Of a DNA stretch of 64,000 nt, positions 27,013 through 40,011 are shown one piece after another. The position numbers and the translations under genes are program-made. Position 1 is the stretch's first letter; every line of letters starts with the position of its first letter. Source of the stretch: Halorhabdus rudnickae (GTDB lineage Archaea > Halobacteriota > Halobacteria > Halobacteriales > Haloarculaceae); the NCBI RefSeq assembly GCF_900880625.1, contig NZ_CAAHFB010000006.1, positions 310,001 to 374,000 on the forward strand, in the 5' to 3' direction. The notes beneath the pieces are model-generated. The model was not told the DNA's origin. It saw only the letters and a list, made by a program, of their open reading frames with translations, and did not search any database.

Positions 27013-27177
27013 ATGTCCATCGGGAATAGCTCGAAGAATCTCGAATGTCGCTGCACGCGGTGTCAGTACAACAACAACGGCAGTTGCGGCTATCAGGGCC
27101 GCGTCCTGATCGACCAGAACGGCGAATGTGCGGTCATGGAGGAGGGTTTCGGCGGCGATCGCGGGCCGTTCGGGTGA
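27013..27177 (+). CDS. 54-residue Cys-rich small protein
   Basis: Short protein beginning MSIGNSSKNLECRCTRCQY with five Cys (CRCTRC, SCGYQ, GECAV), typical of small zinc-binding haloarchaeal proteins related in style to DUF1540. It lies 49 bases after the Hrq1-like helicase in the same direction, so co-transcription is likely. The same frame is open upstream through antisense-like sequence, but the ATG at 27013 is the natural start. Function unknown. Confidence 0.7.
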   Translation: MSIGNSSKNLECRCTRCQYNNNGSCGYQGRVLIDQNGECAVMEEGFGGDRGPFG

Positions 27178-27454
27178 GCATTCCACTCGGGGCACCAGCC
27201 CCAGAGCCTATCGTGTGATCTACGGAGCGGGACTCTCAGCGTGGAGATAATTCGGAAGTGCGAGGACAACGCGTGGCCTTCAACGCGGGAAGGGCCTCAG
27301 CAGTATCGACCGCCGCTGGTGACCGAACGAGTCCATCACGGCGAACTCGACCGCTGAGGCTAATCCGCCCCGTTCCGTCGCTGACGATACACGTCCACTG
27401 ACATCTCCAGCTCTCGCCGTGGTGGTAGCATTCACAACTGAGATCGATTCCAAT
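27178..27454. other. Non-coding interval upstream of the riboflavin operon
   Basis: 277 bases without a convincing gene. GCCTCAGC at 27294-27301 and GCTGAGGC at 27353-27360 are perfect complements about 50 bases apart and could close a structured RNA of about 67 nt. None of the FMN riboswitch consensus blocks can be found here. Confidence 0.3.
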
Positions 27455-27480
27455 TATTTTATACCTTTGTGCGACGAAGG
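27455..27480 (+). promoter_or_regulatory. ribE promoter: TATA element plus adjoining imperfect palindrome
   Basis: TATA-like TATTTTATA at 27455-27463 is followed at once by CCTTTGTGCGACGAAGG (27464-27480), a 17-bp imperfect palindrome with 7-base arms (one mismatch each side) around GCG. This position between TATA and transcript start is where archaeal repressors bind. The RbkR regulator encoded at 36.5 kb is the obvious candidate, by inference only. Confidence 0.5.
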
Positions 27481-27519
27481 ATCGTCCGAATGGAGCGAAG
27501 AGACGGAAACCAACCGGTG

Positions 27520-27546
27520 CCGACGGTCGACTGTTCGACCGGTCGG
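27520..27546 (+). promoter_or_regulatory. Leader hairpin upstream of ribE
   Basis: CCGACGGTCGA and TCGACC-G-GTCGG can pair as an 11-bp stem with one bulged G and a CTGT loop. It sits in the presumed 5' leader, 50 bases ahead of the ribE start, which itself has a good ribosome site (GGGAGG at 27583-27588, 8 bases from the ATG). Confidence 0.4.
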
Positions 27547-27596
27547 GGAGACGGGCGGCCCGACCTGGCGGGTTCTCGGACAGGGAGGGCAGACAG

Positions 27597-28250
27597 ATGT
27601 TTACGGGAATAGTCCAAGACGTCGGGACAGTCAAGGCGGTCGATCGGCGGGCGAACGCGCTCGTGTTGACGATCCACAGCGACGAGTTGACGGGCCTCGA
27701 ACCGGGCGACAGCGTGGCGGTCGGCGGCCCCTGTCTGACGGTCGTCGAGACCGACCGGACGGCAGAGACGTTCACCGTCGAGGTCACCCCCGAGACCTAT
27801 CGGCGGACGACGCTGCGGGAACTCGGGCCGGACAGTCCGGTCAACCTGGAGTCCGCTCTGCAGTTGAACGGAGACCTTGGCGGGCATCTCGTGACCGGCC
27901 ACGTCGACGGGACGGGCGTCGTCACGGACCGCAGGCGCGAGGAGAAAGCACGGATCTACTCGATCCGTCCGCCCGAGGAACTCCTCCCGTATCTGGCGCC
28001 GAAAGGGTCGATCGCCGTCGATGGTGTGAGCCTGACGGTCGTCGATGTCGACCGGACCTTCAGCGTCTCGATCACCGACTTCACCGAGGATGAGACGACG
28101 CTCCGGCAGACAGGGGTCGGCGACGAGGTCAACCTCGAAGTGGACGTGATCGCCAGGTACGTCGAGCGGTTGGCGAGCAGTGGTGTCGGAACCGACGACG
28201 AGGGTATTGACATGATGGCGAAGCTAGGGGCCATGGAGGGATCGCGATGA
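27597..28250 (+). CDS. ribE: Riboflavin synthase, bacterial alpha-chain type
   Basis: Dismutates two 6,7-dimethyl-8-ribityllumazines to riboflavin and a pyrimidinedione. The 217-residue protein opens with the invariant MFTGIV and has two lumazine-binding repeats (GGPCLTVVETD and NLESAL; VDGVSLTVVDVD and NLEVDV) linked by GGHLVTGHVDGTG. This is the trimeric bacterial/eukaryotic type, not the unrelated archaeal RibC. First gene of an operon; its TGA overlaps the ribBA ATG (ATGA at 28247-28250). A Shine-Dalgarno sequence supports the start. Confidence 0.95.
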   Translation: MFTGIVQDVGTVKAVDRRANALVLTIHSDELTGLEPGDSVAVGGPCLTVVETDRTAETFTVEVTPETYRRTTLRELGPDSPVNLESALQLNGDLGGHLVTGHVDGTGVVTDRRREEKARIYSIRPPEELLPYLAPKGSIAVDGVSLTVVDVDRTFSVSITDFTEDETTLRQTGVGDEVNLEVDVIARYVERLASSGVGTDDEGIDMMAKLGAMEGSR

Positions 28251-29485
28251 GTATCGTCGAGTCCGACCGCGATCGCTCGCGGTTCGACGACGTCGAAGAC
28301 GCTATCGCGGCCCTCGAGGCCGGCGAAATGGTCTTGCTCGTCGACGAAGAGGGCCGAGAGAACGAGGGTGACCTCTGTGTCCCGGCCGAGGCAGTCACGG
28401 CCGAACAGCTCAACTTCATGCTCACGGAGGGCCGCGGGCTGGTGTGTGCGCCCATGGCCCCCGAACTGACCGACACGCTCGGTCTCGAACAGATGGTCCC
28501 GCCTGCCGAGAACACCGAGGAAATGAGCACGCGCTTTACTGTCTCGGTCGATGCCGTCTCGACCGGCACGGGCATCTCCGCGTACGACCGCGCGGAGACG
28601 ATCCGGAAACTGGCAGCTCCCGACGCGGCGCCAACGGACTTCGAGAAACCCGGCCACGTCTTCCCACTGGAGGCCAGGCCTGACGGCGTCCTCGATCGGG
28701 AGGGCCACACGGAGGCCGCAGTCGACCTGGCGCGGATCGCCGGCTATCGGCCTGCGGGTGCCATCTGTGAGATCGTCGACGACGACGGCACGATGGCCCG
28801 AGAAGATCGCCTGCTGGAATTCGCCGACGAACACGACATGCCGATCGTGACCGTCGCCGACGTGCTGGAATACCGCTACCTGACCGAGACGCTCGTCTCC
28901 CGTGAGGTCGATACCCGTCTCCCGACGGAGTTCGGCGAGTTCGACCTCTATGGATACGACTACATGGGCGAGACCCACGTCGCCCTGGTCAACCTCGACG
29001 ACGTGGATCTCGAAACGGACCGCCCCCTCGTGCGCATTCACTCGAAGTGTCTGACCGGCGATGCCTTGCACTCGCTGAAGTGTGACTGTGGCTTCCAACT
29101 GGAAGAAACCATGGCCCGAATCAGCGAGGACGGCGGCGTCTTGCTGTACCTCGATCAGGAGGGACGCGGGATCGGTCTGCTGAACAAACTGAAAGCCTAC
29201 CAGCTTCAAGAGGAGGGCTACGACACCGTCGAGGCCAACCGCGAACTCGGATTCGAACCCGACGAGCGACGCTTCGACGCTGCCGCCCAGATGCTTCGGG
29301 ACATCGGCCTCGACCGCGTCCGGCTGTTGACGAACAACCCCCGGAAGGTCGATGCCCTGCAACGGTTCGATTTCGACGTCGAGACCGACTCCCTGGAGAT
29401 CGAACCCAACCCGGAGAACGAATCGTACCTCGAAACGAAAGCCGAGAAACTCGGCCACCAACTCGACGTGTTCAACACCGACTAA
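28247..29485 (+). CDS. ribBA: Bifunctional DHBP synthase / GTP cyclohydrolase II
   Basis: Fused enzyme of 412 residues feeding both branches of riboflavin synthesis. Residues 1-215 are 3,4-dihydroxy-2-butanone-4-phosphate synthase ([11 protein letters not shown] metal site, [27 protein letters not shown]). Residues 216-412 are GTP cyclohydrolase II with zinc Cys residues in [18 protein letters not shown] and the catalytic [12 protein letters not shown]. Such fusion is bacterial; most archaea use the unrelated ArfA plus separate RibB. That points to an acquired gene, although GC and acidity match the neighbours. Coupled to ribE by a 4-base overlap. Confidence 0.95.
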
Positions 29486-29504: not shown

Positions 29505-29981
29505 ATGACAGACTACGACGTGACGGAACTGGAAGGCGAACTGGACGCGAGCGGCCGCGAATTCGGTATCGTGGTCAGCCGCTTCAACGACCTCATCACC
29601 GGCAAACTGCTGGATGGCGCCCTGGATACGCTGACGCGCCACGGCGCCAGCGAAGACGACATCGACGTGGCCCGCGTGCCCGGCTCTTGGGAGATCCCCC
29701 TGACGGCACAACGCATGGCCGAGAGTGGCGACTACGATGCTGTGATCGCCCTGGGCGCGGTCATCCGCGGGGAGACTCCCCACTTCGAGTACGTCTCCAA
29801 CGAGGCAACGAAGGGCGTCGCCAAGGCAACCCTCGACACTGACGTGCCCATCGCCTTTGGCGTCCTCACCACCGACACGACCGAGCAGGCCGTCGATCGA
29901 GCGGGCGTCAAGCAGGGCAACAAAGGCAGTGAGGCTGCCGAGAGTGCGATCGAAATGGCCGACCTGCTCACTGAATTCTGA
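29505..29981 (+). CDS. ribH: 6,7-dimethyl-8-ribityllumazine synthase
   Basis: Condenses ribitylaminouracil with dihydroxybutanone phosphate to the lumazine used by RibE. 158 residues; motifs are [46 protein letters not shown] (with the catalytic His) and [15 protein letters not shown]. The true ATG is at 29505, 19 bases after the ribBA stop with a weak GGAG upstream; the open frame extending back inside ribBA is not coding. Third gene of the operon. RibD-type deaminase/reductase genes are missing from the cluster. Confidence 0.95.
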
Positions 29982-30914: not shown

Positions 30915-31613
30915 ATGGACACCGCCGTCATGGAAGACTACCTCAAGGTTATCTACGAACTTGAGCGCGAACGGATGCCCCCGGTGGGGACGTCGGCGAT
31001 CGCCGACGCACTCGGGGTGACTGCCCCGACGGCCACACGGATGCTGGAGAAGTTGGCCGAGGAAGACTTACTCGAACGCGAGAAGTACAGCGGCGTCGAG
31101 TTGACCGAGCACGGTCGGGCGATCGCCCTGGAGACGATCCGCCACCACCGATTGTTGGAGGCCTATCTCGTCGAACATCTCGACTACGAGTGGGAAGAAG
31201 TCCACGACGAGGCCGAACGGCTCGAACACCACATCAGCGAGGACTTCGAGGAACGGATTGCACGGGCACTCGATCACCCGCCGGTCGATCCCCACGGCGA
31301 ACCGATCCCGAGTGCTGACCTGGAGGCACCCGTCGAGGAGGATGTCGAACCCCTCTCGACCCACGAAGCGGGCGAGGCAGTCGTAGTCGCCAGCGTCCGT
31401 GAGCGCGATACAGAGACCCTCCAGTATCTCGAGGCGGAGGGGATCGTTCCCGGCCGGGAGCTGACGATCACCGAGATCACGCCTGTCGGGACCTACGTGC
31501 TGGAGTGTGAGTGCGATACCCGACAGTTACCGGAGACGACGGCCGATTGCATCTACGTGCGCTCGGCTGCGGCCCGCAGCGACGCCGGTACCGAGGAGGT
31601 GCCCGGACTGTGA
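30915..31613 (+). CDS. DtxR/MntR-family metal-dependent regulator
   Basis: 232-residue cytoplasmic repressor of the DtxR family. It has an N-terminal winged helix (VMEDYLKVIYELERE, ALGVTAPTATRMLEKL, YSGVELTEHGRAIA), a dimerisation/metal-binding region with HHRLLEAYLVEHLDYEW and EHHISEDFEERIARAL, then a C-terminal FeoA/SH3-like domain (about 150-225). It is translationally coupled by a GTGA overlap to a GDT1-family transporter, which fits control of manganese (or iron/calcium) homeostasis. A 14-bp palindrome just upstream is a candidate autoregulatory site. Confidence 0.92.
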   Translation: MDTAVMEDYLKVIYELERERMPPVGTSAIADALGVTAPTATRMLEKLAEEDLLEREKYSGVELTEHGRAIALETIRHHRLLEAYLVEHLDYEWEEVHDEAERLEHHISEDFEERIARALDHPPVDPHGEPIPSADLEAPVEEDVEPLSTHEAGEAVVVASVRERDTETLQYLEAEGIVPGRELTITEITPVGTYVLECECDTRQLPETTADCIYVRSAAARSDAGTEEVPGL

Positions 31614-36507: not shown

Positions 36508-37209
36508 TCACCGCTCGTGAACGTGGACCGTCACGGCATTGCCGTCCGCAACGCCGAGTTCCGTCCTGAGTTGATCGGGGGCGATGATCTCCAGTTCGGC
36601 GTCGTCGTAATGGGTCCGCTCGGGCGAGACGACGTGGGCACCTTCGTAGGTCGCGGTATCGCTTTCGAGGGTGATTGGGTAGCAGTACGCCGGGCCGTAG
36701 GTCCGGTCGCCGTCTTCCCAGCCCTCGATCTCGACCGGATCGAGTGCGTTCATCCGCGCCCGGGCGCGGGCACTCCGGTCGTCCAGATCGAGGTTGAAGG
36801 TCCCGGGGAAGGGTTCATACCCAAGTTTTTCGACGAACTGGCTGTGATAGCCCGACAACGAGACGTAGTGGCGACCCTCGCCCATGCCGCTCTCGACCGA
36901 CCCCGACAGCGTGACGCCGATCCCGTGCTCGAAAATCCGCTGGTACTCGGCGTACTCCTCTTGGAGGAGGCGTTCGCCGTCGTCGGTGATCCGGACCCAC
37001 TGGCCGTCGCTGACGATCTCCCGGGCGACCAGGTCGGTGTCCTCCAGACGCTGGAGGCGACGCGAGGCGGTCTGGGTGGAAGCGTCGAGTTTCGACGCGA
37101 GGCCGGAACCCGTGATCTTGGCGTCGCCGTCGACCGCGCCAGCCAGCGCCAGGAGTTTCAGCGTCGCCAGTTCGGCGTACCCGATGTCCTCGCCCGGGAG
37201 TTCGACCAT
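36508..37209 (-). CDS. rbkR: RbkR: riboflavin regulator and CTP-dependent riboflavin kinase
   Basis: 233-residue bifunctional archaeal protein. Residues 1-95 are a winged helix ([36 protein letters not shown]). Residues 100-233 are the CTP-dependent riboflavin kinase domain ([30 protein letters not shown], and the end segment TVHVHE), which makes FMN. The family is known to control riboflavin genes in archaea, and the ribE-ribBA-ribH operon lies 9 kb away. The start at 37209 ([10 protein letters not shown]) is favoured over 36 upstream codons; TATA-like CTTATCAG lies about 30 bases upstream. Confidence 0.93.
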
Positions 37210-37478
37210 CGAGAGGTGATTGGCCGGGCCGACTGATAAGCACACCGGGACCAGGCGATTGGGGCCCCGACGAGTATTCGTATCGAGATTTGTAAAAGAA
37301 TTTATTGGTTCGCTCACGCGTCTGCCGGGGTACAGCTAAAACCCCCTACGAGATATGGGGCGCACACCTTTTAGGATTTTCATAAGGAATGTTATCTCCG
37401 AGTGTTCAGTTAAGATACCCATATCTTATCTTCTTTCTCAGAGTAGAACAGTAGATCAATCAGTACATCCTTTGTTAA

Positions 37479-39762: not shown

Positions 39763-40011
39763 CTACTGAGTGACAAAATAATAGAGTGGAACGAATCCCG
39801 GGACGATGAACGGATACACGATGGCTCCACCGATCGTTGACTCTGTTCTGGCTATGCCGATGATTCCCAGTATCGTGACTATGAAGTATCCAATAGCTGC
39901 TGTGAGCACGCCGTTTGCCACCCCGAACATCCAGAAAACCACGCCCAAAACAATAAAACCGAGCTGCCCCCACGCCCCGAACCTGGATAACGTAGTCGGC
40001 TCTATGTCCAT
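39763..40011 (-). CDS. Small membrane protein, unknown
   Basis: 82-residue protein with three hydrophobic segments (WGQLGFIVLGVVFWMFGVA; AAIGYFIVTILGIIGIA; GAIVYPFIVPGFVPLYYFV) after a short polar N-terminus. Lower GC than neighbours. No family recognised; the coding probability rests on hydrophobic pattern and intact frame. Confidence 0.5.
   Translation of the reverse strand: MDIEPTTLSRFGAWGQLGFIVLGVVFWMFGVANGVLTAAIGYFIVTILGIIGIARTESTIGGAIVYPFIVPGFVPLYYFVTQ

Follow-up and report, generated by a model that had tools for sequence, protein, structure and literature searches.

The window analysed here, a stretch of 64,000 nucleotides from Halorhabdus rudnickae, raises the question of how a riboflavin operon of bacterial type is controlled in an archaeon, and which DNA element and which regulator serve it.

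A bacterial-type riboflavin operon in Halorhabdus

The operon lies on the + strand and consists of ribE (27597..28250), encoding a bacterial-type riboflavin synthase (TIGR00187 and NF006767, both above cut-off), ribBA (28247..29485), encoding a fused DHBP synthase and GTP cyclohydrolase II (PF00926 and PF00925), and ribH (29505..29981), encoding lumazine synthase (TIGR00114). A sequence-only reading had taken these genes to be acquired targets of bacterial type, and the distribution of GTP cyclohydrolase II bears this out. Of 391 Halobacteria genomes, 7 contain the enzyme, and every one of these is a Halorhabdus (1 of 86 genera); the search was positive in 10/10 bacterial controls and in 0/4 archaeal controls. 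RibBA is the sole DHBP synthase in each Halorhabdus genome, the archaeal ribB being gone, and each genome carries one copy of lumazine synthase and one of riboflavin synthase. The gene for GTP cyclohydrolase III, arfA, is absent in four of the seven Halorhabdus genomes, a relic in two (this genome, at G000:C4:142304-142486, and G001) and intact in one (G006), so that it is absent or a relic in six of the seven; a neighbouring gene is common to the three genomes that retain a trace or an intact copy of it. Because GTP cyclohydrolase II is limited to the genus within class Halobacteria, the sole DHBP synthase resides in RibBA and GTP cyclohydrolase III is mostly gone, these gene contents indicate that the archaeal first steps of the pathway are replaced in Halorhabdus by the bacterial-type operon.

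The three genes are not equally informative on this point. The RibE protein is 78-86% identical to those of the six Halorhabdus congeners, and a bacterial-type RibE, about 45% identical, is found in other haloarchaea too, so that, judged by presence and absence, only RibBA clearly stands out as a newcomer. The nearest RibBA outside Halorhabdus, according to a pattern-limited search, was 46% identical and belonged to Armatimonadota.

A conserved block upstream of ribE

When the upstream regions were aligned on the TATA box, 28 of the 34 columns of a block at 27430-27463 (+ strand; ATTCACAACTGAGATCGATTCCAATTATTTTATA here) were invariant in all seven Halorhabdus species, and in the 40 columns 5′ of the block the identity went down to approximately 3.2/7, which corresponds to background. 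The block takes in the candidate operator, the BRE region and the TATA box with which it ends; the TATA element itself, TTTTATA at 27457..27463 (+ strand), is kept in 7/7. The genes upstream of ribE vary among the species, and only here and in G001 is ribE preceded by a helicase gene and a 54-aa gene. The product of the latter gene (27013-27174) is cysteine-rich, 100% identical between the two genomes, and gave no Pfam or NCBIfam match.

Within the block we found a 20-bp palindrome at 27436..27455 (no strand assigned), the candidate RbkR operator, with the genus consensus AATTGGGATCGATTCCAATT and the sequence AACTGAGATCGATTCCAATT here. Its arm pairs numbered 6-9 of 10 across the species. In a whole-genome search allowing up to two mismatches, AATTGGGATCGATTCCAATT was found before ribE in 7/7 Halorhabdus genomes, and the only other matches in the seven genomes were one stray in G005 and one in G004.

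Such a block might be an unusually strong constitutive core promoter, an extended BRE plus TATA, that works without a dedicated regulator, and the strong TATA box, always 26 nt from a GAATG that is conserved in all seven species, would suit this. However, conserved sequence continues for 27 bp on the 5′ side of the TATA element, beyond the length of a BRE; CGAAA, the BRE consensus of haloarchaea (PMC4983044), is absent from the block; and a core promoter leaves unexplained both the palindrome and the order of the half-sites described below. We regard this reading as unlikely.

RbkR and the half-site array of haloarchaeal rbkR promoters

The regulator gene rbkR had been said to be encoded 9 kb from the operon, and an ORF was indeed found at about that distance on the minus strand (36508..37209, with the likely start at 37209; ORF 36508-37317). 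Domain and structure matches identify the product as a wHTH fused to a CTP-dependent riboflavin kinase: the kinase domain (DUF120) matched PF01982 with E = 6e-40, and in the comparison with 3cta/5trd (E = 9e-33) both the wHTH and the kinase were aligned. The NCBIfam equivalog NF010762 scored 218 bits, below its cut-off of 279 bits. The recognition helix is 96% conserved within Halorhabdus and 88% conserved to other haloarchaea. RbkR is a regulator of archaeal riboflavin genes, as cited in PMC8305020.

An EM motif search on the rbkR promoters of 35 haloarchaea other than Halorhabdus gave a 40-bp motif, gTCaCAATTCTGtGAtGCaTaCCACATTCGgTATGCTTAT. The motif consists of four half-sites, TnnCA-N4-TGnnA-N4-TnnCA-N4-TGnnA, with a spacing of 9 bp, and ends 3 bp before the TATA. 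In nearly all the loci checked outside Halorhabdus, rbkR is directly followed by ribB. When 59 relatives were searched with the array pattern, it was found at rbkR in most non-Halorhabdus genomes and before arfA in two genomes of another haloarchaeal family (G042 and G057), in which the pattern, even with one mismatch allowed, gave no match at rbkR. The presence of the array before a second riboflavin gene argues that it is the site of the riboflavin regulator, and from the published role of RbkR together with the position of the motif at RbkR's own promoter we infer that RbkR binds it. The search provides a working RbkR motif for haloarchaea, with a regular half-site grammar.

No Halorhabdus genome gave a match to the pattern of four half-sites plus TATA, either at ribE or at rbkR. 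The best PWM scores in the Halorhabdus rbkR promoters were -5.3 to 3.7 bits, equal to background; judged by these scores, the array is lost from the rbkR promoters of this genus. Since RbkR keeps its DNA-binding helix and its own site is lost, a target is expected elsewhere.

Partial match of the ribE block to the array

The candidate site just upstream of the TATA of the riboflavin gene ribE resembles half-sites 1-3 of the array. With the PWM from the 35 rbkR promoters, two full half-sites, TGAGA-TCGA-TTCCA at 27439..27452 (+ strand), corresponded to half-sites 2 and 3 of the array, and both (TGrGA and TTCCA) are complete in 7/7 Halorhabdus. Half-site 1 is partial, as the sequence at 27430-27434 (ATTCA) lacks its T, and the place of half-site 4 is taken by the TATA element, which begins 5 bp downstream of 27452. 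The centre of the spacer is mostly CG at the ribE site, against GC in the array.

Using a PWM of three half-sites, 27430-27452 ranked first among 127,956 positions in the window, with 12.8 bits against 10.0 bits for the next. The ribE sites scored 10.2-13.7 bits across Halorhabdus, compared with a minimum of 13.2 and a median of 23.9 bits for the rbkR-promoter sites in the leave-one-out analysis, nearly all of which lie above the ribE sites; the two arfA sites scored 10.6 and 19.7 bits. The chance of a score at the ribE level within 150 bp was 0.001-0.005 per genome, a p-value that is weakened by the six sub-arrays tried. Moreover, some 20-120 sites with such a score would be expected in each genome, so that the regulator cannot be identified from the match by itself. 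The array match at ribE is supportive of an RbkR site, short of decisive.

Scored as a single dimer, the strongest RbkR-like site of the window is TCACGATACTGGGA at 39865-39878 on the minus strand; it lies inside an 82-aa ORF and is probably due to chance.

Palindromes are also bound by DtxR proteins, and a DtxR/MntR-family protein is the best rival regulator; as operator of such a protein, the palindrome would tie flavin synthesis to metal supply. The gene concerned (30915-31613) is nearer to the operon than rbkR and linked to it in all seven species, lying downstream of ribH with an Nmad3-domain gene between them in most. Yet this type of motif occurs in the window only before ribE and not before the DtxR-family gene itself, and the half-sites and their spacing agree with the array of the rbkR and arfA promoters, which speaks against the DtxR reading. 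The boxes recognized by DtxR are of the TTAGG type, unlike the ribE palindrome. An operator of this or another regulator is, in our estimate, quite improbable.

The palindrome downstream of the TATA box

The RbkR operator had been placed by the sequence-only reading at a palindrome directly following the TATA element. The sequence is found there: the 17-mer CCTTTGTGCGACGAAGG at 27464-27480 (+ strand), with 6 of 8 arm pairs, adjoins the 3′ end of TTATTTTATA (27454-27463) and lies 117 bp 5′ of the ribE ATG at 27597. Odd-centre 17-mers as good as CCTTTGTGCGACGAAGG or better numbered 491 in the window, compared with 428 expected from first-order Markov sequences, and the ribE upstream region alone contains two of them. 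The 17 aligned positions in the six Halorhabdus congeners showed 1, 3, 3, 3, 3 and 3 arm pairs. Because the count is near the Markov expectation and the arm pairs are not shared by the congeners, this palindrome is a chance feature and unconserved. Binding of RbkR at this sequence, which by its place between the TATA and the start site would suit a repressor, is hardly credible for an element that is near chance, kept in no congener and poorly scored by every version of the array PWM.

The conserved element of the upstream region is the block 27430-27463, and not 27464-27480; a conserved motif at another upstream position is what the sequence-only reading had itself named as evidence against its proposal. 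The proposal that RbkR controls ribE gains support for the site moved into this block, where three half-sites match, though weakly (10-14 bits, the leave-one-out median being 24), and it falls for the element originally flagged. The right regulator, RbkR, had probably been named at the wrong element.

The ribE leader

A possible leaderless upstream ORF of 40 codons (27490..27612, + strand) is kept in position and frame in 7/7 species. Its ATG lies exactly 26 nt past the end of the TATA element, and it shares 16 nt with the start of ribE, in the same frame relation in all seven. No constraint on the peptide was seen in the seven species, as substitutions are distributed over all codon positions; this lack of codon-position bias suggests that the ORF perhaps serves translational coupling and not the production of a peptide. 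Neither an FMN riboswitch nor another Rfam family was found in the ribE leader, where the sole match was a chance lncRNA (E = 0.39). A structured leader RNA was considered and set aside: the alifold z of -3.7 was due in the main to a stem that lies within the ribE start region and shows hardly any covariation.

Proposed control of ribE-ribBA-ribH

We favour, with moderate confidence, the palindrome at 27436-27455 as the control element of ribE-ribBA-ribH, most likely as an operator of RbkR. The palindrome lies just upstream of the TATA and overlaps the BRE region. RbkR would sit as a dimer on the paired half-sites TGrGA-N4-TTCCA (27439-27452) and gate the recruitment of TBP/TFB at the adjacent TATA. 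Both the binding of RbkR at the ribE site and its mode of action are what we infer here. CTP reportedly helps the binding of RbkR and FMN is said to relieve it, which would favour activation when FMN is scarce; repression would be just as compatible with the BRE overlap and the strong TATA.

In most haloarchaea, RbkR would exert its control through four half-sites at the promoter of its own rbkR-ribB operon. In Halorhabdus, the array is lost at the rbkR promoter, and the acquired operon would carry a shortened form of it; control seems to have moved with the pathway to ribE-ribBA-ribH. On the fuller history our judgement is evenly divided: a bacterial operon may have displaced the lineage's native GTP cyclohydrolase III and DHBP synthase, the array at the regulator's promoter being lost and a shortened one built on the newcomer, with the same FMN-making kinase-regulator now governing a foreign pathway.

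Our literature searches returned no account of riboflavin control in Halorhabdus; the published RbkR regulon, which is said to cover many archaeal genomes, may already list the ribE site. The genus provides a natural experiment in regulatory rewiring, with a foreign operon in seven related species, arfA relics in two of them and an intact arfA in one, and in the sister genera the operator is arranged in the other way. If RbkR binds the ribE site, it becomes possible to study how a transferred operon comes under the control of a regulator.

Comparison with known systems

With the archaeal RbkR regulon (Rodionova et al. 2017, doi 10.1093/nar/gkw1331; here through PMC8305020), the present case shares an RbkR orthologue with a wHTH and a CTP-dependent riboflavin kinase, a riboflavin biosynthesis operon as the target and a palindromic element upstream of the TATA. 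It differs in that the Halorhabdus target is the bacterial-type ribE-ribBA-ribH, confined to one genus, that the candidate operator is shortened and altered at its centre, and that the array is lost at the rbkR promoter.

The haloarchaeal rbkR-ribB operon (HVO_0326-HVO_0327 type) resembles the ribE promoter in having TnnCA/TGnnA half-sites with 4-bp spacers next to the TATA. Whereas the rbkR-ribB operon has four half-sites that end 3 bp before the TATA, ribE has two full half-sites and a partial one, with the TATA in place of the fourth. Bacterial rib operons under an FMN riboswitch likewise combine RibE, RibBA and RibH in one operon; in contrast to these, the Halorhabdus leader is without an Rfam FMN riboswitch, and control would be exerted by a DNA-binding protein.
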